Below are positions 3,590 to 64,000 of a stretch of DNA of 64,000 nt, piece after piece; within the stretch, counting starts at the first letter, position 1, and every line of letters begins with the position of its first letter. Where the stretch lies: positions 4,237,501 to 4,301,500 of the forward strand of contig CM073331.1 of NCBI GenBank assembly GCA_037043015.1, in the 5' to 3' direction. The position numbers and the translations under genes were made by a program. Below the pieces are notes generated by a model. The model worked only from the letters and a program-made list of their open reading frames with translations. It was not told where the DNA came from and did no database searches. The stretch comes from Bryum argenteum. Lineage: Eukaryota > Streptophyta > Bryopsida > Bryales > Bryaceae.

Positions 3590-4978
3590 ATGAAGATGAA
3601 TCCGCCAGCAGCCGAGTTTGAAGTGGTAGTGCAGTCGTCAATGAACACACCGACGTCGCTCACACGGCCGAAATCAAGCGCGACAATCGCCGTGATGGAG
3701 ATGACGAATAGCAGCGATGGCATTGATTACCTTCGCACCAAGTCTAACGGTGCTTTAGATCAAGTCGATTCGAAGAAATCGTCTCTACGACTCTCGAACG
3801 AGCCGATTGTCTCCACGCGCATCCACGCCATCCCTCTCTTGATGGTGCTCGTCTTCTTCATTCTTTGGACCGCCTCCTCAGGTACTAATTCTGGCCTGTG
3901 GTGAAGCTTGTAACCCTAGGAGCACCAATTTTTGAAACCTGGATCTCGGTTTTGTAGAGCATGTGTTGGAGGTGAAGGCGGAAGAGGCGTTCGCGATTAC
4001 GAACAAGCTTCAGGAAAGCGAAAGAACGATGCAGCATTTTAACAGCACTGTGAGTGATCAAAGCTCGGCAGGAGCTTATGCGAGAGGCGACGGCGCTCAT
4101 TCTCTTGTTTATTATCGAGCGAGGAAGCGACTTCCTGGACGTGCTACTTACATGCGCGGCGGACATCAGTGATCTCTTCACTACTGTATATTCATATGCA
4201 TTCTTTAGTTTTTTCACGATTTTTTCGTTCTTAATTCTTTGGAGGTTATCTGTTTGATAGCCTCGGTTGAGTAATTTGAGTACACTTCTCTTCCTACTGT
4301 CACCTTTTGTGCTGTTTCGTGCAGCAGTTTTGAATGTTTATGGAATCACTTGTTGCTCTTGTAATATTTGATTGGAGACGTCAATCATCTCTCGATGTTG
4401 ATTTCTTCAATGTTATGGTGACAGATTGTCTACTCATGTCTCACAGTTTTTCATGATTCTTTGAAGGTTAACCGTTTAATAGCCTCGTCGATCTGAGTAT
4501 AGTTCCGTGAATTGGCATTCGGCTTGCTGTCAGCTCCTTGCTGTTTCATCCAACATTTTAATGTACATTGAATCACTTCTAGCTCTTGGAGTCTCGACTG
4601 GAGTTGGAGACATCTCACTTATCTCTAGGTCTTTATTTCTTTTTAGAATATGGTGCAGATTGTTTACTCAGATTGTTTACTCATATTGCATTCAGTTGGT
4701 AATTCGCAATTCTCTGGAGGATATCTGTTTGATCGCCTCGTTCAAGTGATGAGTACAGTTCCATGAATTGGCTTTAATCCTGCTGTTGGATTTTTGCTCT
4801 GCAGTTTTGTGTCGTCGATATGAATGCTTGTTGGATGCTTTGGAATGTTTTGAGTGGAGAGGAAATTTTGGAATGGCACTTTTGCCAACACTACGTGAGT
4901 GCATTGGAAAGTGTGAGGATTTCAAAAGAAGATTGCGATGCACGACTTCGATCATTTTTGTTCGGAAGCAATCGGTGA
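3590..4978 (+). CDS. Unrecognised single-pass membrane/coiled-coil protein, possible frameshift
   Basis: Proposed exons are 3590-3881, 3958 to about 4048, about 4055-4185, and 4805-4978 (TGA 4976-4978). Junctions fit CAG|gtac, gtag|AGCATG, ACT|gtatat and gcag|TTTTGT, and the phases agree. The start is ATG 3590. The N-terminal region of about 75 residues is polar and Ser/Thr-rich. One hydrophobic helix follows (LLMVLVFFILW), then a charged helical stretch (EVKAEEAFAITNKLQESERT). The frame changes near 4048: frame 3 ends STV and frame 1 resumes VIKARQELMREATALILL, with a GTGAGTGA direct duplication at the joint. Either a 4-bp tandem duplication broke the gene or the sequence has an error. I do not recognise the family. 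Confidence 0.45.
4186..4804 (+). repeat. Intron with about three decayed tandem repeats
   Basis: The proposed last intron of the membrane-protein gene contains about three divergent copies of a 200-250-bp unit (near 4200, 4420 and 4670). Each carries a CATTCTTT/TTCTTTGGAGG block, then GTTTGATAGCCTCG-like sequence and a GAGTACAGTTCC-like block. They look like old local tandem duplications inside non-coding DNA. Confidence 0.5.
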
Positions 4979-5629
4979 AAGTGGTCTTTTGACCAGTGCC
5001 TCGGCACTTTTGCAGGTGCCTGCTCTCATTGCAGCTCTTTTTTGAGAGCATGTTATTGGGACATGCGGGAAACTTTGCTTGCACTAGAAAGCTTGAAGAA
5101 TCTTTCCATTCCTTCCTTGTTAGGAGATTTGTCTTCTTTTTCATGTTATCAAAATTTTTACTTAATTTAGAGATGGAATGCTGGAAGTGTTCTTGGGAGG
5201 AGGTGTTGTAAGCATCTTAGGCTAGGGTTTTAGGCGTTGGGAGAGTTTTGGAGCAATGGTGTCATTCGTTTCTTTCTGAGCATTAAAATCTGATCAGAAT
5301 ATTTGTCTTGAATACCTTGTATGGAGGCCTTTTGAGGATTATTTTCATCAGTCTGATCAATCAGAAGTGAGAATCCTAAAGTTGTCAAAATGCTCTGTAC
5401 TCATGTGAAGTAGTGTTCATTAAACCCTGAAGGTGAGTGAGGCCCAAATCGGTTGATTTGACTTTGGTCAGTCTCTGGTTTACTATTTTTAAATTGCATG
5501 GAGGCTAAACCTATTGCAAGTTGTAGAGTTTTTTCATACTTTTTTTGAAAAGTCATTTCATGCTTCAGAATTCCTCATACTTTAAGAGATATTTACATTC
5601 AAAGTTTGAAAACACCGTTTGAAATCTGC

Positions 5630-6211
5630 CCAAAATCTATACGCTCATGGTGTTTTTTGGGAGCTTGAAATCTCAAATCTGCGATTCTCTACCTCTAAGC
5701 ACTCACGGGGTGTGAACCAATTTTTTTTTCTTTTTTTAAAACTTCCAACCGTAAGATCTTGTACCTAGGAATATGCTTGATCATTCTCCAAAATATTGAC
5801 CGTTGGATGTTTACCATTTGAGAGATCATAACATCCAAAGTTTGTCTCCCAAGTTTTTTTGGGCATTACGAAGATTGGTTTTGAAATTTTTGGAGGCTGC
5901 CCTTGTAAAATTGGTAAACTTTTTGACTTGAGTCACTTTAAAATTTGAGTAGTAATTTAGTAATGAGCATGTTTCAAAAAACAAAATTTAAAAAAGTTAC
6001 TTTTTTAAGCTGCCCCATCTCAGCTCGCAACCCAACGATTGTCCTAGATGACTCAAAAATTGGAATTCAATTTTGCAAATTTTACCACATACACTTTGCA
6101 GTATAAGATGGACCCAATAAAACTTTTGGGCAAAAATATTACTTCTAACTCCTTCAAATAGGCTGCCCGTAATTGCAAAAACCCATTTTGGGCTTTAAGG
6201 AGAGTTAGGGG
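5630..6211. mobile_element. TTAA-type MITE, copy 1 (about 580 bp, decayed left end)
   Basis: Homologous along its length to the elements at 41819-42395 and 43280-43852, sharing GGTGTTTTTTGGGAGCTTGA near the left end and GAGAGTTAGGGGTTAA at the right. The right end abuts TTAA at 6212-6215. The left terminus is degenerate here, so its boundary is approximate. No ORF. Confidence 0.65.
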
Positions 6212-16389: not shown

Positions 16390-16474
16390 TTTCTAAGCTT
16401 TAAAGCTTAAGGTTAGTAACAATACATTGTGGATTGCTTGGTTGAAAAGAAATTGAAGCTAAGTCATGCGATTA

Positions 16475-17003
16475 GAAGAAGAAGAAGAAGAAGAAGAAGA
16501 AGAAGAAGAAGAAGAAGAAGAAGAAGAAGAAGAAGAAGAAGAAGAAGAAGAAGAAGAAGAAGAAGAAGAAGAAGAAGAAGAAGAAGAAGAAGAAGAAGAA
16601 GAAGAAGAAGAAGAAGAAGAAGAAGAAGAAGAAGAAGAAGAAGAAGAAGAAGAAGAAGAAGAAGAAGAAGAAGAAGAAGAAGAAGAAGAAGAAGAAGAAG
16701 AAGAAGAAGAAGAAGAAGAAGAAGAAGAAGAAGAAGAAGAAGAAGAAGAAGAAGAAGAAGAAGAAGAAGAAGAAGAAGAAGAAGAAGAAGAAGAAGAAGA
16801 AGAAGAAGAAGAAGAAGAAGAAGAAGAAGAAGAAGAAGAAGAAGAAGAAGAAGAAGAAGAAGAAGAAGAAGAAGAAGAAGAAGAAGAAGAAGAAGAAGAA
16901 GAAGAAGAAGAAGAAGAAGAAGAAGAAGAAGAAGAAGAAGAAGAAGAAGAAGAAGAAGAAGAAGAAGAAGAAGAAGAAGAAGAAGAAGAAGAAGAAGAAG
17001 AAG
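16475..17003 (+). repeat. Giant (GAA)n microsatellite, about 176 units
   Basis: About 529 bp of uninterrupted GAA triplets. All long ORFs over it (poly-Glu, poly-Arg, poly-Ser, poly-Leu, poly-Phe) are artefacts. At the corresponding site in copy B (42,880-42,925) the flanks GGGATTAG and GCATGAGG are separated by only about 30 bp of unrelated sequence with no GAA tract. Assembled length may be underestimated. Confidence 0.95.
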
Positions 17004-30497: not shown

Positions 30498-30510
30498 GTG
30501 AGCAATTGAA

Positions 30511-30871
30511 AGGCACCACAAGCCTTGGCTTGGTGGTTAGGGCTTAGGCCCCCAATGAGGAGGTCGTGGGTTCCATTCCCCATGCCGGCGTGGTGTTCAC
30601 CACTATAGTCCACCCAACTATTGTGGAGGGTCTTTGGACCTTGTTGTATGGGTACCTCAAAGCCCTTTGGGGGGATACTATGTCAAGTATCTTCAAGGCA
30701 TTAGTAACTAGGCTAGAAACTAGCGTAGTTACAGTGTCCACCCTCGAGAGGGGGAAGTAGTATTGTTCCAATTTCCCCTTGTCCGGTGGCCATCCGGATA
30801 TTAGCATTACAAACGGACACTTCATTCACGCCGGCCCCTTAGAAAGGGACCGGAGTTTTCTATTCTATTCT
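30511..30871 (+). mobile_element. tRNA-derived SINE, copy 1, with 13-bp target duplication
   Basis: The 361-bp insertion is flanked by GTGAGCAATTGAA on both sides (30498-30510, 30872-30884). Copy B has a single occurrence at the homologous site (about 56,036). The head has pol III-type boxes: A box TGGCTTGGTGG (30526-30536) and B box GGTTCCATTCC (30569-30579). The tail is T-rich (TTTCTATTCTATTCT). No coding. The family occurs at least five times in this window. Confidence 0.88.
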
Positions 30872-30884
30872 GTGAGCAATTGAA

Positions 30885-32429
30885 GGTTTGGTAAAAACAA
30901 AATAGAAGAAACTAAGAAGAGCGTGCCTCTAGATGACAAGACAAAATAAAACAATTGTCAAGCTAAGAGGTAGTCTAGGAGCATATGAGGAAACGTGGTT
31001 ACTAAAAGTTGTGTCCCACGAAGCCAATTGAGTGTGCCAATTGAGTGTGCTCCAACAATCTCATAAAAGCAAAATGAATAATGCAATTCCCTTATAAGAA
31101 TTATGTTACAAATAATGAAGGCAACGCAAGTTTTTTACGCATTTTAAAGCTACTTGTCTATGTAGAGTCACTACTCTTCTTTGTTTATCTTGAAAATCAT
31201 ACATCCGTAAACATTTTGAATTTTGGGACTTTGGTGCACTTGTCGCCCACTGTTTACAAGGGTCGGAATGCAAGCACGTGATGGTATAGAGCAAACAACC
31301 AAACAAGCTGACATGGTTGGAGGAAAGCAGCTACTCATGTATCAAGGTACTGGTCAAGTCCATCATCTTCACATGTGATCAAGCAATTTGCACATGCTTG
31401 CGTGACCCCCACCCCCCAAAGACTTTCCACCAATTTTTAATTTTTCAATTGTCCAGGTTGTCTGATATTTAGGTTCTTGCCTGGAGTGCCTACGTCCCCA
31501 ATGGCTCTCCTATGGAACTTACTTCTCTCAATCACCAAGGAATAGGACTTAACTGTTTAGGTACTTGAAGTGTACATTCTAGCAGCTGAGATAGAATAAT
31601 CTTCTTCGTAATGACCAACGTGGACTGAAAATGGGACTTAGGTGCACCAACTTGCACAAAATGGTCGATGTGATGACTGCACACAAGTACAAAATTGGTC
31701 CTTCTTCATTTCAACATCGGATTCAAACAAACTTGTCGGATTGACAACCATCTTCATTGAAAATGAGAATTTGAATGCACGAGAGTGATTTTGAAGAACA
31801 ACATTTGACGGAAGTAAAGTGCATATGTCTCGTAGGCCGTGTACGTTGGGCGAGGGGTATATTTCATGATATGGCACATGACGGAGGAGAGGTTTGACGA
31901 TGTGGGTGTCAGTGGAGGCAAGTTTTGGCAGGAATGGAACGTGATGTCAGTGTATACATTGTGCCTACTCATTCTTCGTGTATGCATTGAGTGAAAGGTT
32001 GACGACCCTGTATCCATTAGAATTTCAAGTTACCAAACTCAATTGTAAATTGGCAAATTAAATGATGTAAGAAAAGTGTGCAAAGTCTGTGGCTAACCAG
32101 CTTACTTGGAATTGTAATTTTCTTAATATTCTTGATTGATTGGTCAACCCTAAAACGCCCGAGATGTAAAGAAAAACAACATTTTGGATGACAAGGTGAA
32201 ACTTTGTAGAGCTACATCTTATTTGTCTCGAGTCCTTTTTTTTCTGTTTTTCTTTTTTTTGACAAAATCAAATTGCATTTGAATCCCAAATCAAGTCTAG
32301 TTTGTGAGATGAAAATACCAGACCCATCCAACGTAATATTATGACATGTGTTCTTAGTGTACACAACTTTTGTTTTTGGGACTTTGAATTTAGAACATGT
32401 TTTGTCATTGTGTAATTGCCATGAGGGGT
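30885..32429. other. Non-coding block; contains the empty site of the copy B Crypton
   Basis: Collinear with 56,040-56,673 and 59,638-60,600 of copy B. CTCCTATGGAACTTACTTCT at 31507-31526 corresponds to the two flanks of the Crypton-like element in B. No gene seen. Confidence 0.6.
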
Positions 32430-32439
32430 TGAAGGATTG

Positions 32440-32770
32440 TACCTATCCATCCAACCTATTTAGAGGCATGCCTGAAGACATTGTTCATTCGACCTATCCA
32501 TGGGTGTATGCCTAGAGGACATCATGCTAGTGAACATCAGAGAGGTGACACTATGCTAGTTCCTACCTAGCCACTAGTGCTTTAGAGATACTGGACATGG
32601 TATCCCCCCAAAAAAGTTTTAGGTACCCAATACAACGAGGTCCAAGAACCTCCCGCTATTGTGGGGTGGACTATGGTGGTGAGCAACCACGCCGACATGG
32701 GCAGCAGAACCCACCACCTCCTCAATGAAGGCCACGAGCTTTAACCATGAAGCCAAGGCTTGCGGTGCCT
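32440..32770 (-). mobile_element. SINE, copy 2 (minus strand, 3' end decayed)
   Basis: The reverse complement begins AGGCACCGCAAGCCTTGGCT and continues through the family body. It is the positional equivalent of the copy at 60908-61259, whose target duplication (TGACRTGGCATA) is recognisable; here the downstream flank reads TGACATGGCATA. The 3' end is altered. Confidence 0.7.
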
Positions 32771-32789
32771 TGACATGGCATACATTGTA

Positions 32790-36124: not shown

Positions 36125-36471
36125 AATCAAGAAGAGAGACTCCAACCCATTTAGAGGCCGGAGTGAATAGAGTGTTCGTTCGACCTATACTTGGATGTAT
36201 GCCCAAAGGTCATTACACCAATGGCGGGACTACCAACTCCTCTTGAGGTGAACACTATGCTAGTTCCTACCTAGCCATTAGTGCCTTAGAGACACCCGAC
36301 ATGGTATCCCCTAAAGGGCTTTGAGATACCCATACAATGAGGTTCAAGAACCCCCCACCATAGTTGGGTGGACCATGGTGGTGAGCACCACGCCGGCATG
36401 GGGAAAAGAACCCACGACCTCCTCATTAGGGGCCATGAGCCCTAACCACCAAGCCAAGGCTCATGGTGCCT
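36125..36471 (-). mobile_element. SINE, copy 3 (minus strand)
   Basis: The reverse complement begins AGGCACCATGAGCCTTGGCT with the B box in GTGGGTTCTTTTCCCC. Flanked by TTGCATC on both sides (36118-36124 and 36472-36478), consistent with target duplication. The equivalent in copy B is at 63305-63656, so insertion predates the duplication. Confidence 0.8.
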
Positions 36472-36478
36472 TTGCATC

Positions 36479-53595: not shown

Positions 53596-56500
53596 CATCA
53601 TATTGAGACGTTCAATTGTCTCTTTTATTCTGCATTTCTTCATTCTTATGCTTCACTTGTGAGTGAAGAGCATTAGAAACCTCATTTGATTATTTGATTA
53701 AAGATGAATACATCATCACATAATAAAGTTCTTGATGAGCGTCATAAGCGTCAAATGCAAATAAGAACACCAAATGTCACACATCACCTTTGTGTTATAA
53801 TACCAATTTTCAAGACATAATGTTGAATGTGAATGCGCATTAATTTTTGTGAAAGGAGAAGCATTTATTGGAATTGGCATAGTTGGTGATTCTAAGAAAT
53901 GACAATGAACACTAGTAGCAATGGCGGCCCTAATTGAATACTAATCTTGAATTTATTGAGAAATAGTGTAATGTTTGACTTTTAGTAAAATAACGTTGGT
54001 CATACAAAACATCGATTAATAACTTTTGTGTCTTGGAAATATGTAGAGTTTCTACAAATCTCTTCCCCAAGATTTCTATCAAGAGTGTCTCATTTCACAA
54101 GGCTTGGAGGAAATCTTGTTGAGAACTTGATGGAAACTCCACATGTTTCCTCTAGTGCATTTGAATGGAAACAAACTTGGCATTATTATCAGTAGAAAGC
54201 GAATAGTTGGATGTTGAGCAATTTGACTTAAGAGTGAGTCTATATACACAATATTTCCAATTTAGTATTCTACCATGATACCATGCGTATATGTGCCTAA
54301 TAGTACATGGAGTACTACAAATTTGATTTTTCCCACTCTAAGTCAATCCATTCTACAATGGCACATATAAATTTGCCAATGCAACAAAAATTGGCTTCAC
54401 AGTCTTATTGATACAATTATATTGAGACTAATTATTGTGTGTAGAATATAAAAGTCATGCTTTTATGTACAACCTTGCTAGAAGGCCATGTTTTCAATTT
54501 AGTATATAGCATTTTCTTACACTAATTAAAATCCTCTAAGTAGTTCGGACATTCACCTATTTAGAAATGCCTATTTAATGTGGCCAACATAATTGTATGT
54601 TGTTGACTTGGAGCATAGTCCTCTCTTTTAACCACTCAAAAACTTTACAAGTAGGCACATTTTTCATGATCTCAAATTATTCTCTTCATTTTGAACACAA
54701 ATGTCACTTGCATGTTACAAAGTTGAACATCAAACTTGTTATATTGGTTACATCACTCTAAGAAAATAGTGTTTTTTGTGACATGTTTACTCAACTACTG
54801 TGTGATATGTTTTCACTTCCTCAACAATCACTCAACTACAACTTGATATGCACTTTGGAACATAGTAAACTAGTAGTAAACTAAACAAATCAATTTTTTT
54901 TGCATTTTGCCATTTTTGCCATTTTCACATGTAGTAATGTGGAGGTAGTTTGGGTGCACTTCTTGCACCAAAATTCCATCAATCAATTTGAATCTCACTA
55001 ATGCTATAATTTATGGTATATGCTCCCTCCTCCATTCGATTTGTACTTGCAAATCATCCATTTTGTCTTTCATATACCATATTTTGTCACATCGTGGATC
55101 AAAAAATATTCTTACTAATAGAACTAGACTCTACTCTAATTGAAATCCATTCCTAATTCCATCAATAGATGATGGAGATATACCTCCTCAACAATTATTC
55201 ATGTTTTCACTCATTGGATTGTAGAAACATTATTCCGAATCCCATACCAAAGTTATCGGTTCAAAAATAATTCAACGAGAAAGTCAGTGGGATGCATCAT
55301 GTAAAACTATTTCATGAAAAAATATTTTTGATATCACAGAATTGGCTTGCATTGGTAAAACATGCCCCATGTATGAAATCTCAAAAACAATCATTGCCTT
55401 CACTAAAATGCATGCCATTAATTCCTAAACCTATAGAATACTTATAGAAGGAGTTTGCAATTTTACTCCACAAACTAAACTTGATTTGTAACCCAACCCA
55501 AGTGATTTCTTCAAATAGTGAATTTCATCCAAAATGACACTAGAGACGCGTAGAGGTTAACAAACCGACTGTTGCACATTTGGGTGATTGTATGATACTG
55601 AGTGGCAGAAGAGAAAGTATGTTAGACAATGGCAAGCACGCATGTCAAAAAAATGTAGTTTGTGAAAAGAATGCATTTTATATTGAGCGCTCCATGTGAA
55701 TAATTTCGTCTTAAGTTGATTATAATATTTCCTTTCTTGAAAATTAAAGAATTAATGAGGATGAAGAGAAAATATTCTCAATGAATGCCCATCAAGTAAA
55801 TAGCCTTATGAGGCTTCGAGACTATAGCAAATGTCACAAACTAGTAGCAGGAAACAAGATCAATCCTTTTCGAGAAGCTTGCTTGCGTCATGTTGTGCTC
55901 ATGCTACGCTCTGCACTTGCTAATAAAAAGTAGCTCTCATCTATGAACGAGTCTACACTCCTACATTGCTCACACCCTCATACATCACAACTACAAACAC
56001 CAAGCCTATATACTTGTGTATTGCCATTACAATAGTGTGAGCAATTGCGGATTTGGTAAAAACAAAATAGAAGAAACTAAGAAGAGCGTGCCTCTAGATG
56101 ACAAGACAAAACACACAATTATCAAGCTAAAAGGCAGCTTAAGAGCATGTGAGGAAAGGTGGTTAATAAAAGTTGTGTCCCACGAAGCCAATTGAGTGTG
56201 CTCCAACAATCTCATTGAAGCAAAATGAATAAGGCAATTCCCTTCTAAGAATTATGCTACAAATAATAAAGGCAACACAAGTTTTTTTGTGCATTTTTAA
56301 GCTACTTGTCTAATTATGCTATGTGAAGTCACTACACTTCTTTCTGTATCTTGAAAACCATACATTCGTAAACGCCTTGAAATTTGGGACTTTGGTGCAC
56401 TTGTCGCCCACTCTTAACAAGGGTCCAAATGCAAGCATGTGATGGTATAGTGCAAACAACCAAACAAGCTGACATGGTTGGAGGAAAGCAGCTACTTATG

Positions 56501-56673
56501 TATCCGAGGTGTTGGTCAAGTCCATCATCTTCACATGCGCCCTCATGTGTTCGAGCAATTTGCACATGCTTGCATGACCCCAAAGATTTTCCACCAATTT
56601 TTAATTTTTCAATTGTCAAGGTTGTCTGATGTTTACATACTTGGAGTGCCTACGTCCCCAGTGGCTCTCCTAT
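53596..56673. other. Non-coding block of copy B up to the Crypton insertion
   Basis: Equivalent to 27,978-31,512 without the SINE. No gene seen. The junction CTCCTAT at 56667-56673 abuts the inserted element. Confidence 0.5.
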
Positions 56674-56678
56674 TTACT

Positions 56679-56793
56679 AGAGAGCGGGCTGTAATGGCAG
56701 ATTCCGCCATTACCGCGAGGGCACAGGCGAGCCCGAAGGGCGAGCTTGGGGCCAAGCGGTAATGGCGGAATCTGCCATTACAGCCCGCTCTCT
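56679..56793. repeat. Perfect 38-bp inverted repeat at the left end of the Crypton-like element
   Basis: Arms 56679-56716 and 56756-56793 are perfectly complementary around a 39-bp loop. Inside each arm GTAATGGC and GCCATTAC flank a 7-bp spacer (AGATTCC or GGAATCT), so each arm is itself a small inverted repeat with the arm-spacer-arm geometry of tyrosine-recombinase core sites. A short GCCC-GAA-GGGC hairpin lies in the loop. Function inferred only. Confidence 0.8.
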
Positions 56794-56934
56794 GGCGTTA
56801 AGGGCAGGGGTAATGGGGGCAGTCAAGATAATTTATATGTAGACCGTATAAACAGGTGTCATTGTTTGTACTTCCTTGATCTGTCTTTGTTCTTCCTCTT
56901 TTCCGATTCTTGTGCCGCGCCGTGTCCGTGACAG

Positions 56935-58798
56935 ATGTTGTGTCGTTGCATGATTATGGAGTGCGCTCCACTCTCTGATCTTACAAATAGTATAGGTGTG
57001 AATTTTGTCCAACCAGTCTCTCTTTTTGACTTGAAGAAACCTGCTATCTCTTCGAAAGAGGCTAAGAAACCTGCGTTGGAGTTTTCATTTGTCGTTCCTG
57101 ATTCTAATGTTTCTAGATCTCTTTCTGGAGAGCTTTCTGTTGTTGAATCTGCTTGTAGTTCCGATGTTCCAGACTTGAACATTGTCTCCGGTTTGCCTCT
57201 TTCGGAGTCTGATGCATGGGATCTTGGTATCGTTGGTCTTGAGGATCCAGAGTGGTTGATTGATGGGGAGGACGCTTCTGATTTACATGCTAATGGCAAA
57301 GATGTGTTTGAAGTGTCAAATGAGGATACTGAAGCTAATCTTAACTTGCCTCGTTCTGATCCTTCTTCTCTCGATCTGGAGTATCTTCAGAGAGGTTTCA
57401 AACAATTGGAGAGAGAGGAAGTTGAACTTGCCGCTAAAGGTGGCCCTCGGAAGTCTGTCTACATGGACAGATGGGCTCGAAATAGGTTCAATGATTGGCG
57501 TAAGGTGTCTGGCATAGATCAGGAGGAAAGTATCGAGGACATGTTTGAGAGGAGTGTTTCTACGTTAAATGAGCTTTTGTCAACTTTCTTTCTTCAAGTG
57601 CAGCGTAGAGATGGTAGATTGTCTCCTGGCGAAACCTTAGTGAAATTTCTGCGTGCTATCGATCGCATCATCCGTACTAGAATAGAGCTTCGTGGCCATT
57701 AGACCTCTTCTCACTCCGATCAGTTCTATATTTTGGAAGATCCGCGGTTTAAGAAAACTTGCGTGTCTTATATCGTCTCTGCTCAACACTCCGGCAAGGC
57801 TGGCATTGGCCGGAAGCGACGAGTGACTCTAGCTCTTACACCTCAGCAGGATGCAGCAATTATTGCCCAGGCTTTCATGAGTCGCTCTGATCGGCGAGGC
57901 TGCCAATTGAGGCTAGCTTTCTATGTTACTCATAATTTTTGTGCACGAGCTCAACACGAGATGTACAATCTTTGTGATTGTGATTTTCAAATTGCGGAAG
58001 ATAAACTGGGGCGTTATGTAAGATTTGATGAAAGATCCTCCAAAAACCACAAGATCGACTTAAAGCACTGCCAACCTGAGAAGATGCGGCGTCCAGTATT
58101 TTGCTATCATGTTGATGTTGTTGATACTTTTGAGACATATTTCGCTCATCTTCCTAAGTGGAGTGTTGAAGAGAAAGGTCCTCATCCTCTATTCTTACGG
58201 GCGATAGATGGCATTCTTCGCAATCCTGGTATTGTAAGTGTTTAGTACGAATTGGTTTCTATTCTCTCGATTTCATTTGATTGATTTGGGGGAATTGGCT
58301 CTCGTAAGTTTCAGATCTGCTTCAATAAGTTTCAGATCGGTTTCATGAAGTTTCAGATCCGCTTCATCGGCAGATTCTGCAATTTCAAGATGTAGATTTG
58401 GTGCTTGTTTTCAGCTAACTATAGTGTTTGATGTGTTGTAGTGGTACTCAAAATCGAGAGTAGGTGTGAAGAGCATCGCAAAATGGCTCCTACAAATGGT
58501 TCAGGATATTCGTGGTGTTGATATTCAATCGATAACGAACAAGAGTGCTAGAGTCACTACTGTCTCCCGGCTCAATGCCATGGGAGTTCCTGCAGGCATC
58601 GGGATGAAATTAACAGGGCATACATCTGTTGAAGGTTACATGCGCTATAATACTGATGAAGAGGGCATCGAAATGAGAGCTATGCAGAATGTTGCCAGTG
58701 CCGTTCCCGGAACGGGCGGAGACATTTCTTGGCAGCATTGGATTTTGAGCGTCGTCGATATCAAGATGCCATGGGGATTAAGCGCCCTAATCAGTTGA
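56935..58798 (+). CDS. Crypton/KIAA1958-like tyrosine recombinase, one intron, one in-frame TAG
   Basis: Exon 1 runs 56935-58233, the intron 58234-58441 (GTAAGT...TTGTAG, phase 0, 208 nt), and exon 2 58442-58798. The N-terminal part of about 150 residues is acidic and unrecognised. Next is a SAM-like DNA-binding domain (RWARNRFNDWRKVSG, LNELLSTFFLQVQRRDG), then the catalytic domain. Catalytic residues: Arg I in NFCARAQHE (codon 57946), beta-hairpin Lys in RSSKNHK (58042), KxxR in TNKSARVTT (58541 and 58550), His in LTGHT (58619), Tyr in GYMRYN (58646), nine residues after the His as in XerD-type enzymes. The order FERSSK..., WYSKSRVGVK, TNKSAR is as in Cryptons and the animal KIAA1958/ZMYM/QRICH1 (DUF3504) proteins. 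A TAG at 57700-57702 interrupts exon 1 in frame between the two domains: a recent nonsense mutation, readthrough, or an unseen small intron. Confidence 0.82.
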
Positions 58799-58808
58799 AC
58801 TTGTTCCC

Positions 58809-59204
58809 TTGAATGAGCCTGATCGACAAGTTCTACCTCATGTTTGTGAGCCCGGTCCTAGCCAGCAAGTTGTTGATCAACGAGGTGCACCTTGTGTTTG
58901 TGAGCTTGGTCCTAGCCAGCAGGTTGTTGATCGGTCCCATGGTCAGAAAGTTGTTGTAGCGACATGCTATGACGATGATGCATGGTGGCAACAAAAAGAA
59001 GTGGAAGATCAGATTGAGCAAATGATGTGCTCTGTTATGAAGAAGCAAGCCACTGAGGTTTCTCAAATTGCCAACAGTGTAGGAAATATCAGTACCGTAT
59101 TCAATGGAAATCTGAGCGATTGCATGATTCAGCTATCCATTCCTGATTTTAGTGCAGCATCGACTCTCCTTAAATCGTTGCAAAGCAATAGTGATCATGC
59201 GTAA
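58809..59204 (+). CDS. Downstream ORF of the Crypton-like element (131 codons)
   Basis: Open in frame 3 right after the recombinase. It has an in-frame duplication of about 20 residues (CEPGPSQQVVDQ / CELGPSQQVVDR), then a helical stretch (EVEDQIEQMMCSVMKKQATE). It probably was the C-terminal part of the recombinase polyprotein: frame 1 at 58741-58809 encodes ERRRYQDAMGIKRPNQLNLF and ends one base out of frame with this ORF. Joining would need an unrecognised intron or reversal of small indels. No domain recognised. Confidence 0.45.
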   Translation: MNEPDRQVLPHVCEPGPSQQVVDQRGAPCVCELGPSQQVVDRSHGQKVVVATCYDDDAWWQQKEVEDQIEQMMCSVMKKQATEVSQIANSVGNISTVFNGNLSDCMIQLSIPDFSAASTLLKSLQSNSDHA

Positions 59205-59545
59205 TCATCATGATACTGGTAGACAGATTGTAGCTAGTGATCTTAGGAGTTCATCTTGAATTTTTACCGCATACATTGGACATTGAGGTCATGATGACCG
59301 ATGCTAGCAACTATGAAATTACGGTGTTCGTAATGATCATGTAATTCAACTTCATGATGATCGACTTCATCTCACAATCTCCTTATAATTGTCTTCATCA
59401 CGAATTCACGATGTTTGCAGTGTTTTTCATGATCATCATAATTGATGCTGAGCCTCGGAGCGATGTGTTTGCAGTGTCTGAGATTCATGCGTTGTCAATC
59501 ATTGACATTGCTTGATAGTAAGAATTGGCAAAAAGGGAAGATTCC

Positions 59546-59589
59546 GCTGGCAGAATCGACAGTTGCCTCGTAAGGCCGATTCTGCCAGC
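59546..59589. repeat. Palindromic repeats near the right end of the Crypton-like element
   Basis: GCTGGCAGAATCG (59546-59558) and CGATTCTGCCAGC (59577-59589) are perfect 13-bp inverted arms around an 18-bp spacer. A third CTGGCAGAAT lies at 59605-59614. They share GATTCCGC and GGCAGA words with the left-end palindrome, suggesting one protein binds both ends. Confidence 0.75.
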
Positions 59590-59637
59590 AGATCGTGCCA
59601 AAATCTGGCAGAATACCCTTGCCCCTGACCTTAACGT

Positions 59638-60907
59638 AACTTATTTCTCTCATTCATCCGGGACAAGACTTCACTATCTAGGACTTGATGTGTACATTCT
59701 TGCAGTTGAAGTAGAATTATCTTCATCGTAATGACAACCATGGACTCAAAATGTGACATCGTTGCACCAACTTGCACAAAATGGTCAAAGTGACGACTGC
59801 ACACAAGTACGAAATTGGTCCTTCTTCATTTCAACATCGGATTCAAACAAACTTGTTGGGATTGACAACCATCTCCATTGAAAATGAGAATTCAAATGCA
59901 CGAGAGTGATTTTGAAGAAGAACAACAGTTGACGGAACCGAACTGTTTGTTCGACCTACACATCCGCACAAGACATAATACCAGTGGTGTACGTAGGACT
60001 ACTAACCCCTCCCAAGGTGAACACTGTGAAACTTATTGTGTGAATGAGTAGATCATGGACTGTTTTTGAGAGCTTCAGTCTGTTATTTAGAATCGCTTGA
60101 AAATAACTGCCTTCTTGCCATTTGACAAGTTTTGGTAATCCAATACTAGATTGAAAAATGAATGAAACAAAGTGGCTGAGACGCAAGCTACCAAAAACAA
60201 TCTGATGAGCCCTTGAAGCGGTTGCACCGTGAGTGTATATGACTAGTATGGCGTGTACCTTGGGCGAGGGGTATATTTCATTGTATGGCACATAAGGGAG
60301 GAGAAGAATGACGATGTGGGTGTCAGTGGAGGCAAGTTTTGGCAGAAATGGAACGTGATGGCAGTGTATACATTGTGCCTACTCATTCTTCCTGTATGTC
60401 TGATTTACATATTCATGTTCTTCAAGGTTTCTACTGTCAGAGGCACCAAAGTCTTTGACCACCAACGGCGTCATCCCCTTTCATGACGGCCCGTGATGGC
60501 AAATTGCGACCCTGTATCCATTGGAATTTCAAGTTACGGAGTTCACTTGTAAATTGGCAAATTTAAGTATATTAGAAAAATGTGCAAAGTTTGGCTAACC
60601 TGCTCAATTGGAATTGTATTTCATACCAATTATGTGAATCATGTGAAAAATTTCTATCTAAGATTGATTTTAGGATGAAGCCTAGAGACTTTATCCCAGA
60701 TGTTCTTTGATTGAAACCATTTAAGTAGTAGATTTTTAAAGATGTGTCTATTTGGAAAACACTTTTAAAATGTATATATTTTAAGGGGTTGTATTTCATC
60801 CATCCACTATGGGATTTCAATCTCATCTACTGATTAGGTTCTAATTTAGGTTTTAACATTGTTATAATAAAATCAATTTATCCAAGATGTTTTGATGACG
60901 TGGCATA
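59638..60907. other. Non-coding block of copy B right of the Crypton
   Basis: Equivalent to 31,515-32,200 of A plus the B-specific 59,938-60,222. The latter starts with GTTCGACCTACACATCC and AGGACTACTAACCCCTCC, which match the SINE 3' portion, so part of it is a SINE fragment. No gene seen. Confidence 0.5.
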
Positions 60908-61259
60908 GAAAAAGATGAAGAAAAACTCCAATCTCTGTAGAGGTAGGCATGAAGAGAGTGTTTGTGTGACCTTTGCTTGGATGTATGCTTAGAGGTTATC
61001 ACACCAATGGCAGGACTACTCACCCCTCTTGGGGTGAATAATATGATAGTTCCTACTTGTGGCTTAGTGCTCTAGAGATATCGAACATGGTATTTTCCAA
61101 AAGGGCTATTAGGTACCCTATACAACCACGTCCAAAACTCCAAGCCATAGTTGGGTGGACTATGGTGGTGAGCAACCACGCCAACATGGGCAGTAAAACC
61201 CATGACCTCCTCAATGGAGGCCACAAGCCTTAACCATCAAGCCAAGGCTTGTGGTGCCT
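60908..61259 (-). mobile_element. SINE, copy 4 (minus strand)
   Basis: The reverse complement begins AGGCACCACAAGCCTTGGCT. Target duplication TGACGTGGCATA (60896-60907) and TGACATGGCATA (61260-61271), one mismatch. An A/T-rich tail lies next to the left repeat (GAAAAAGATGAAGAAAAA). Confidence 0.82.
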
Positions 61260-61271
61260 TGACATGGCATA

Positions 61272-63304
61272 CATTGTATTGCAATAGGTAAGCTTTGAAC
61301 TATTTGCCTTTGTATATTTTTTGGCCGTTGTCACCTTTTGAAGCCTACTACTTCAACACAAAAGAAACAACAATCATTTTTTTGGTACACGGGTGTTAAT
61401 GACTTTGTCTCCATGGTGAAAAGGAAAAATTGATAATTATTTCCCCAAAGATCTTGGTCATAGTTTTTTCATGCAGATAATCATGTTGGGTACGCTCATA
61501 CAAAATTCTGAAGACTCATTTCACTTTTATGACCTTCATGCAAATTATCTTCTAAAAGAAGGTTTGAAAACAATGACATAGAAAACATGCATTATGTTAA
61601 AAAAATTTGGTTTAAGCTGAATTAAACAATATTAGGTGCCTTTATGAGTTTGTGTATTAAGGAAAAAAAATTTTAAAAAATGGAAAGTTTTCAAAATCTC
61701 AAATTTCGACAAATTCTGAAAGAAAAATTTGTAAATTTACTTAAAATTGTGAAGATTCTTATCGAATCTTTCGGAGGTTGCCTTTGGAAAATTGGTAAAT
61801 ATTTAGACTTGGTCACTTTGGAACTCAAATAATGATTTGGTTATGAAAACATTTCCAAAAAAATCTAAATTTAAACTGCTTGTTTTGGGCTTTAAACCTA
61901 AAATTTCCATATGAAGAATTAAAATTTAGAATTTGGCTTTGCAAGTATTACCACACAAACTTTGCAATATAGGGAACACCTGGTAAGATTTGTAGTATAG
62001 AAGATTACTTTCAACATCTTCATCTAGTCTATGTAAAATAGCAAAGAGTTGTTTTGGTGACCGTGAATCTTGAGGGGGTTAAGAATTATCATTCTTATAA
62101 ATAAAAGAAAAAAAACAAAAAATAAAAAAAAACCAAAAACAAAAACTGTTTTGGATTTCCAAAAAATGAAGCGAAGCAAGTGTATTCAATGAATAATTCT
62201 CAACAAATCGTAATTCCACTTTAGAACTCAAACTTCTAGGTTGTATTAGATTTTAAGAGAATTGTCATATAGGGGAACAAACAGGTAATATGTTTCCATA
62301 TAGGGAAATGATCACATATTACTTGCACATTGGGTAAGGAAAAATGTTCCACTATTGTTTCAAAAAAAAAAAAAAAAGGAGAAAAAACCTCATATGAGCT
62401 TCAATATATTGAGGAGCCAATGACTTCATATAAGCTTCAAGTTCATAATGAGTGATGCCGATCAAAGGTGCTTTTGTGATTTTGTTCCTCTCTTTGCAAA
62501 TATCTTGCGTCCGTTCCCTTGTTTAGAAATGTTTGACCCTGATTTTCCCCTACACAAAAATTCCCCTAGATTCTAATGTGCCATAATAAAATAAAAAATT
62601 ATCATTGTTTGCTACTTTATCTAACCCATTGGATTAATGGCTCAAACTTTATTCAAGGTCTAGCCCAATCTATACAACAGATTCAAACATACCACATACC
62701 AACTTTCCTAGTTTGTTTCTACTTTGTTAGGCATGCTTGAAAATAGGTGCTTCTACCATATTCCTTGGATGCATTCAAGGAGAATACGAACGTCCTCTTT
62801 TTATCTTAAAATTGCACAGCAATTCCTTGGTGACCACAACCAATTACCAATCCAAGACATCTCTCCCTCCTCAATGTAGCCAACTCCCAAGCCAGTTTCT
62901 CTTTTACAATGTTTATTATAAGTAAACTATCTGTACATGCTTGAAATTTTGAAGGTCATGCCCAAGTCCCAAGGACTCCTTTCAGATTGCAGACACTGGC
63001 AAGTCTGTTAGAGAATGCAGCTGCGCACATGCCCATAAAACCCTGTTTTAAATAAACTGGCAAGCAGTATCACTTTGTACACACTTGCTAAGTTATTTTG
63101 GAAGATAAATGCATAGGTTAGCATGTCCACTTTTAGAGCTTTGCAGCATGTTTGCTCGAGGATCGTGCACTTGTGTACTTTCATCGGGCCAACATATTAT
63201 TATCTTCTGTACTAACAAGAGCCCCTATCATTATTCAGCCTCAAATTCTTAGAACATTTAATTGCCCCAAAACTAAATCCTTCCAAAAATGAGTCCCTTG
63301 CAAT
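61272..63304. other. Non-coding repeats-rich block of copy B
   Basis: Starts at the empty site of the copy A foldback element. Contains a decayed TTAA-MITE relative (about 61,390-62,060), then DNA collinear with 35,000-36,110. No gene seen. Confidence 0.5.
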
Positions 63305-63656
63305 AATCAAGAAAAGAAACTCCAACCCATTTAGAGGCCGGCGTGAATAGGGTGTTCGTTTGACCTATACAGTACTTGGATGTATGTCCGAAGGACATCA
63401 CACCAGTGGCGGGACTACTAATCCCTCTCAGGGTGAACACTATGCTAGTTCCTACCTAGCCACTAGTGCCTTAGAGAAACCCGACATGTTATCCCCCAAA
63501 GGGGTTCGAGGTGCCCATACAACGAGGTTCAAGAACCCCCCACCATAATTGGGTGGACCATGGTGGTGAGCACCGCCCCGGCATGGGGAATAGAACCCAT
63601 GACCTCCCAATTAGAGGCCATGAGCTCTAACCACCAAGCGAAGGCTCGTGGTGCCT
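63305..63656 (-). mobile_element. SINE, copy 5 (minus strand)
   Basis: Positional equivalent of the copy at 36125-36471. The reverse complement begins AGGCACCACGAGCC. Flanks are TTGCAAT and TTGCATC, a mutated target duplication. Confidence 0.8.
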
Positions 63657-64000
63657 TTGCATCCGTCACATTCTTATCGATGGAAATGATAAATCCAATG
63701 GTCTTTGTTACTTTTGTGAGAGGTTCCTTTACTTGGCAAAAGCAGTTTGATTGTAGTTGCTCTAGCAAAAGAAATATAACATAAGTGACAAGACTAGGTG
63801 TGGGAACCCCTATGTGTAAAGTCAAACGGGAGAGCCACATATGAATTGAAGCTAAGGAACCCCATTGCCAATATCATCATCGATAGAGGCATATTTCACG
63901 AGAAAGGTAGATTCCAAGGAGATGAGGTTGTACACCACAAGAGGGTCCAGTCCAGTCCTGACCACCGGCCCAGGAAGGGATGATTGCTCTCGAGGGGGCT

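Follow-up and report, generated by a model that had tools for sequence, protein, structure and literature searches.

What is the 2.96-kb sequence that interrupts one arm of a tandem duplication in the moss Bryum argenteum, and how would such a sequence move? The question arises in a stretch of 64,000 nucleotides (assembly GCA_037043015.1, contig CM073331.1, positions 4,237,501 to 4,301,500 of the forward strand; hereafter the window, meaning this whole stretch), in which a first-pass annotation had described a Crypton-like tyrosine-recombinase transposon. The insertion is a real, multi-copy tyrosine-recombinase transposon in a plant genome. With modest confidence, we favor the interpretation that the copy in the window is a dead DNA transposon of the Crypton, or DUF3504, type, whose joined ends would integrate by way of a folded hairpin.

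The insertion, its empty site and its target

Self-comparison of the window revealed two arms of ~20 kb in direct tandem, one at roughly 16-37 kb and its duplicate at 42-64 kb. Within them, 30871-31513 aligns with 56036-56673 and 31516-31813 with 59638-59937, and thus the second arm alone is interrupted by an insertion. Self-comparison and junction alignment, together with genome copies in the case of the element, delimit two features:

56675..59636, + strand: whole element, 2,962 bp, TACTAG...CTTAACG, in one arm of the tandem duplication
31510..31519, + strand: empty target site in the sister arm, CTATG/GAACTT (slash, point of insertion)

The junctions read CTCCTATGGAACTTAC in the sister arm, CTCCTATT/TACTAG on the left and CTTAACG/TAACTTAT on the right; at the joint itself, two bases (GG in the sister arm, T plus T in the window) are of uncertain assignment. 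Both the insertion and the empty site in the sister duplicate, as first annotated, are thus borne out, with best ends (56675 and 59636) that each lie one base inside those given earlier. That the insertion followed the duplication, as was also proposed, is likely but unproven: precise excision from the sister arm would give an identical empty site. Further copies, sought in the host genome (258.8 Mb, 25 contigs) and aligned at their ends, confirm both termini. With a query that included flanking sequence, the match in locus L009 begins at 56675 and that in L010 ends at 59637; a right-end query gave 17 genome matches including the window, 16 of which reach query base 235-238 of 238.

The target reads WYG/: among 29 distinct left junctions of the TACTAG type, G stands at -1 in 27, a pyrimidine at -2 in 28, and A or T at -3 in 27. 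The sister empty site CTATG/GAACTT fits this pattern, and the window's own junction has T for G. In a further family, represented by L023, the six left junctions are tatG, aatG, taaG, aatG, tatG and gaaG. The target half-site resembles the element's last bases (TTAACG, TTATG), and the two junctions have in common only YG or CG (TACTAG families) or about WWG or TATG (L023 family), to be compared with the terminal direct repeats of 4-6 bp that characterize Cryptons.

Two non-autonomous copies, L057 and L058, lie ~34 kb apart with flanks that are alike, and therefore represent a single insertion that was duplicated afterwards.

The recombinase and the gene content of the element

One protein is encoded by the element, over two exons separated by a GT-AG intron (58234-58441):

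56932..58233, + strand: recombinase exon 1 region, with a variable N-terminal part, a presumed core-binding domain and the first half of the catalytic domain; in-frame stop at 57700-57702
58234..58441, + strand: intron, GTAAGT...TTGTAG, positioned as in the open relative L011
58442..59204, + strand: recombinase exon 2 region, with box II followed by a C-terminal region common to relatives; frame changes near 58730 and 58805

As judged from alignment, the Arg, Lys, H/KxxR, His/Trp and Tyr of tyrosine recombinases are present at family positions, in agreement with the first-pass annotation. The residues are located in the window at 57946-57948 (Arg), 58042-58044 (Lys), 58541-58552 (K-x-x-R), 58619-58621 (His) and 58646-58648 (Tyr), and they fall in conserved columns across relatives: in alignment A1, K211 and K308 are invariant, and R179, R311, H334 and Y343 are kept in at least 90%. 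The window copy is dead, carrying the one in-frame stop and two frame changes listed above; L011, which is 69% identical to it, has 668 codons open across two exons.

With X at the stop, the joined exons of the window match the integrase model phrog_1 (6e-4) as well as both profiles against which the annotation had proposed to compare them, DUF3504 (0.0021) and Phage_integrase (0.089), but these last two matches lie below the curated cut-offs. DUF3504 is the commonest Pfam match, being found in 8 of 10 aligned members (E up to 1, best 1.5e-7), with Phage_integrase in five (E up to 1, best 4.2e-6), phrog_1 in six (E up to 0.1, best 3.5e-9) and a XerA/integron integrase model in three (E up to 1, best 0.0026). 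The DUF3504 scores of the window (18.6 bits), L011 (15.4) and L016 (23.8) are all below the cut-off of 29.7; with the exon-2 regions alone, Phage_integrase matches in four of four, and one member exceeds its cut-off by 0.2 bits.

An exon query (57703-58245) gave at least 39 genome matches and a second-family query at least 68, with several matches per locus; by best query, 25 recombinase loci fall into two protein groups. Scans of viral contigs and prokaryote genomes for relatives gave 29 pattern-matching stretches each, none of which encodes one. The host genome itself contains 90 matches to the chlorophyll a/b-binding family and is that of a photosynthetic plant. One of its Lhcb frames gives 480 and 476 bits with PDB chains 8htu_U and 7xqp_a, which belong to Physcomitrium photosystem entries, compared with 445 bits for the following chain, and a fused chain, 9vfj_2, ranks above them with 535; a moss host would suit this result.

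Uninterrupted elements measure 2.4-3.2 kb, and their scanned frames gave recombinase matches only, leaving the tyrosine recombinase as the sole mobility gene there. Reverse transcriptase (RT), RNase H and methylase had no match in frames from the window, L011 and L023, with no genome search aimed at RT-bearing elements with these ends. Because several copies keep the intron (the window, L009, L010, L011 and L014), DNA rather than spliced RNA is favored as the moving form. Two longer copies contain other genes: one on C6 (6.6 kb) encloses a copia-type pol frame that matches RVT_2 and rve, and one on C10 (13.1 kb, of which 1,500 bases are unread) encloses a frame for a retrotransposon gag as well as a coiled-coil-like one. 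We interpret the extra DNA in both as retrotransposons nested in the element; the C6 insert, as far as it was read, showed no long direct repeats. A MarCry-type fusion was considered and rejected, there being no DDE match in frames from the window, L011 and L023, and the integrase in the C6 copy belonging to the nested copia pol.

Several other features of these copies were recorded. Two adjoining 54-base direct repeats, 81% identical, occupy 58820-58927, where the window copy encodes the C-terminal region. A C-terminal motif, GN-L/M-S/T-NC-I-L, is found in the 59098-59147 region and in L011, L012 and L013, after a variable linker and outside the catalytic domain; in the window frame this region has no Pfam match. 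In the C10 copy (L044 118-3537, L010 4752-6998), an open frame of 1,140 codons accompanies the gag frame and matches a coiled-coil profile weakly (PF05911, below cut-off), and L044 has five copies of ~129 bases at 4887-5816. A sister element copy is interrupted by a copia-type pol frame in opposite orientation (L009 from 4468, L045 1-3510).

Split inverted repeats and the joined ends

The left end consists of TACTAG, an arm A, a loop, A', two to three bases and B', and the right end is B, ending CTTAACG. The internal A'B' is a near reverse complement of B joined to A, giving the layout A-A'-B'...B:

56679..56716, + strand: left-end arm A of the terminal hairpin (inverted repeat I1; predicted fold)
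56756..56793, + strand: arm A', complementary to A, then spacer GG at 56794-56795 (inverted repeat; predicted fold)
56796..56819, + strand: B', complementary to the right end at 18 of 24 bases; A' and B' together form the internal complementary region (fold, end comparison)
59613..59636, + strand: right-end arm B, ending ...CCTTAACG (right-end copies, fold)
59543..59592, + strand: subterminal palindrome of the right end, TCCGCTGGCAGAATCG and CGATTCTGCCAGCAGA (inverted repeat I3, direct repeat D2), whose motif resembles one in the left hairpin; a possible extra binding site

Joined ends were folded with DNA parameters, using 200 dinucleotide shuffles as control. The predicted folds reach -83.9 kcal/mol for the window (z -16.6), -78.1 for L011 (z -19.8), -79.0 for L012 (z -15.3) and -83.2 for L023 (z -18.3), whose end sequences are unrelated to those of the other families. 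The outermost bases are common to three of the four folded families, the ends of L023 (GGTTATG and GACTAGGTAATGG) being unrelated; the window and L023 families both start NACTAG and both end in G. A pattern search of 37 loci identified both ends for 23 distinct elements. A hairpin threshold of 15 B pairs and 20 A pairs was passed by 20 of these (the three failures having 10 and 12 B pairs and 19 A pairs), and all 23 are predicted to have unpaired bases at or beside the joint. The A stem comprises 40 pairs in the window and L011 families, and the paired B positions, of 23 checked, number 20 in the window, 23 in L011 and 23 in L012 (range 10-23 across the 23 elements).

Complementarity is consistently greater within than between elements. 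B and B' match at 18, 23, 21 and 13 of 24 positions within elements versus 5-14 between them, and A and A' at 24, 24, 23 and 13 versus 5-12. Because this holds in every comparison made, we read the pairing as probably having been kept between families while the sequence changed. A loose scan for a hairpin plus repeat returned mostly chance matches; anchored scans, controlled with shuffled sequences, took its place. Of the 25 recombinase loci, a strict anchored search identified the layout in four, namely the window, L011, L023 and L024, versus 1 of 75 shuffled. A second anchored scoring likewise gave four of the 25, the window, L011 and L012 together with a chance match away from the ends of L027, versus 0 of 25 shuffled. 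An inner-site pattern gave 20 matches and none in controls.

The inner pair B'/B alone resembles a terminal inverted repeat, as it should if the left hairpin were a separate foldback element lying beside a simpler recombinase transposon with true ends GCGTTAAG...CTTAACG. We regard this as very improbable. A left-end query gave 38 genome matches, of which 20, including the window, start at query base 1 (the remainder being mostly opposite-strand self-matches of the hairpin); the flanks outside these 20 are unlike, and the hairpin therefore travels with the element. The unrelated L023 family also has the hairpin-first order, in other sequences. An ordinary transposon with terminal inverted repeats was considered as well and rejected.

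On the folded-hairpin reading, the recombinase would join both element ends to form a circle, in which B then A, plus the internal A'B', would fold into one long single-strand hairpin, drawn either from single-stranded DNA or from an extruded cruciform. B/B' and A/A' would provide two recombinase-binding stems with a small bulge at the joint between them, and the folded site would exchange strands with a short half-site in the chromosome, WYG, which resembles the element's last bases TTAACG. Integration would leave no long target duplication. The circle, folding in the cell, exchange at the bulge and the strand used are steps that we infer from this anatomy.

The same anatomy might instead belong to an ordinary Crypton-like transposon in which A'B' provides an additional binding site, double-stranded and with its parts in inverted order, for regulation or synapsis, with no single-strand folding; we consider this somewhat unlikely. 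A'B' does hold a near-complete copy of the joined site and adjoins the left end, recombinases typically bind duplex DNA at paired inverted repeats, each of 11-13 bp, according to the portion available of PMC3212892, and few paired changes occur within families. However, the complementarity is longer than 13 bp (the A stem has 40 pairs, and B has 20, 23 and 23 of 23), and the inner-copy spacers of the four families (GG, GG, AAG and GGA) differ from the end spacers (TACT, TACT, TACTA and GACTA) in both letters and length, which a recombining duplex site should not tolerate.

We consider it improbable that the element is a DIRS1-like derivative lacking RT, moving through an RNA copy with RT supplied from elsewhere and using A'B' as an internal complementary region to mend the ends of its complementary DNA. 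In DIRS1, as described in the excerpted account (PMC3266345), internal complementary regions overlap at the circular junction and no target duplication arises, which suits this view, and the RT search covered frames from the window, L011 and L023 rather than all elements in the genome with these ends. Yet left and reverse-complemented right ends match at only 5-7 of 24 positions and so are not inverted repeats of each other, unlike those of DIRS1, nor does the inner spacer reproduce the joint. All five copies named above retain the intron, uninterrupted elements are short, their scanned frames (window, L011, L023) have no RT match, and the RVT_2, rve and gag matches in the C6 and C10 copies belong to nested DNA.

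Several observations weigh against the folded-hairpin reading. Among 13 left ends of the window family, none of 52 pairs has a paired change, no more than in shuffles; among 11 left ends of the L011 family, 4 of 44 pairs do, a count reached by 40 of 500 shuffles (for cells, by 12 of 500). At 21 of 25 loci the strict search did not recover the layout; several of these are shortened, decayed or interrupted, and another layout is possible there. The window copy is one of the 2 of 29 left junctions without G, and the target counts are those of left junctions, the right-flank pattern having also caught unrelated sites. Sequence searches of the PDB with L011, A1 and A2 gave no match to any recombinase.

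Elsewhere in the window, 16474-17003 is a tandem array of identical copies of a 51-base unit that self-comparison shows to have no partner in the other arm, and a dispersed repeat of ~180-350 bases, ~75-85% alike, occurs in both orientations at 30509-30761, 32450-32789, 36131-36473, 60917-61278 and 63311-63658. In the host genome, weak chlorophyll-binding matches spanning profile positions 31-161 cluster on C2 (25.06-25.09 Mb) and C5 (8.16-8.41 and 14.73-14.76 Mb); these are possibly ELIP-type genes, which are associated with desiccation-tolerant plants.

Comparison with Cryptons, Helitron2, DIRS1 and integron attC sites

We read the enzyme as Crypton-like and the ends as DIRS-like and attC-like. 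DUF3504 derives from Crypton recombinases according to Kojima and Jurka (PMC3212892), the consulted sections of whose work record Cryptons from fungi, animals, oomycetes and a diatom. The moss element shares with CryptonF, CryptonS, CryptonA and CryptonI a recombinase, probably of DUF3504 type, as its own mobility gene, the lack of a long target duplication and the existence of non-autonomous derivatives, and its L023-family TATG/G left junctions recall the TATGG termini that are common to most CryptonS in the same sections. By contrast, Cryptons are reported there to lack both terminal inverted repeats and long direct repeats, with none in 50 copies of an insect family, whereas four families of the moss element show split inverted repeats of considerable length, A-A'-B'...B. 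The Crypton identity given in the first-pass annotation thus holds for the recombinase as the element's own gene, for the plant host and for DUF3504 as commonest Pfam match, but not for the ends. Long split inverted repeats with foldable joined ends are a new end anatomy, not described for Cryptons in those parts of the literature compared.

The annotation had also held that no well-characterized land-plant Crypton was known. No description of one was found among the matches listed from the open-licence literature searched, but one survey (PMC4438587), in the part that includes its Table 2, lists Crypton among the superfamilies in all groups studied, land plants included. The available text of a land-plant transposon review (PMC9033089) does not use the term 'Cryptons' and places DIRS among plants only in green algae, and that of a plant genome review (PMC11630846) calls Cryptons relatively rare in eukaryotes. 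With the present element, Crypton-like transposons can be followed copy by copy in a plant genome.

Helitron2, as portrayed in the accessible text of PMC3627910, resembles the moss element in its 5'-terminal hairpin and asymmetric inverted repeats, but differs in using a RepHel protein and in having its second repeat upstream of a 3' hairpin; this identity was rejected, the frames scanned containing no RepHel match.

Like DIRS1 in the excerpted account (PMC3266345), the moss element encodes a tyrosine recombinase, carries inside it a complement of both ends in joined order, and integrates at a short motif that is shared and not duplicated. It differs in having no RT, RNase H or methylase match in scanned frames, in ends that are not mutually complementary, in the position of the internal copy (at the left rather than the 3' end) and in a joint that is mismatched rather than copied. 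Recombinase retroelements have been suggested to come from an LTR (long terminal repeat) element combined with a Crypton (PMC4157794, in the portion available). End structures so far tied to DIRS1 occur here in an element without a recognized reverse transcriptase. Tentatively, the moss element may represent a recombinase-only lineage of eukaryotic DNA transposons with a folded, attC-like integration site at its joined ends, and hence a candidate link between Cryptons and DIRS1. If the joined ends work folded, both Crypton movement and the origin of the odd DIRS repeats become testable.

The closest parallel for such a site would be integron attC, which in the sections consulted of PMC2727003 likewise combines little sequence conservation with a hairpin, two boxes, an unpaired spacer and a tyrosine recombinase; on the moss side the likeness is one of predicted folds, and recombination of one strand only would be hypothetical. 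The TACTAG-type right end reads AAC then G, as in the attC R' box. The moss element differs in being eukaryotic, in carrying its own recombinase, in its longer stems, in the TATG ends of L023 and in a probable exchange point one or two bases further out. If the folded-hairpin reading is true, the folded joined site would be a eukaryotic counterpart of integron attC folding.

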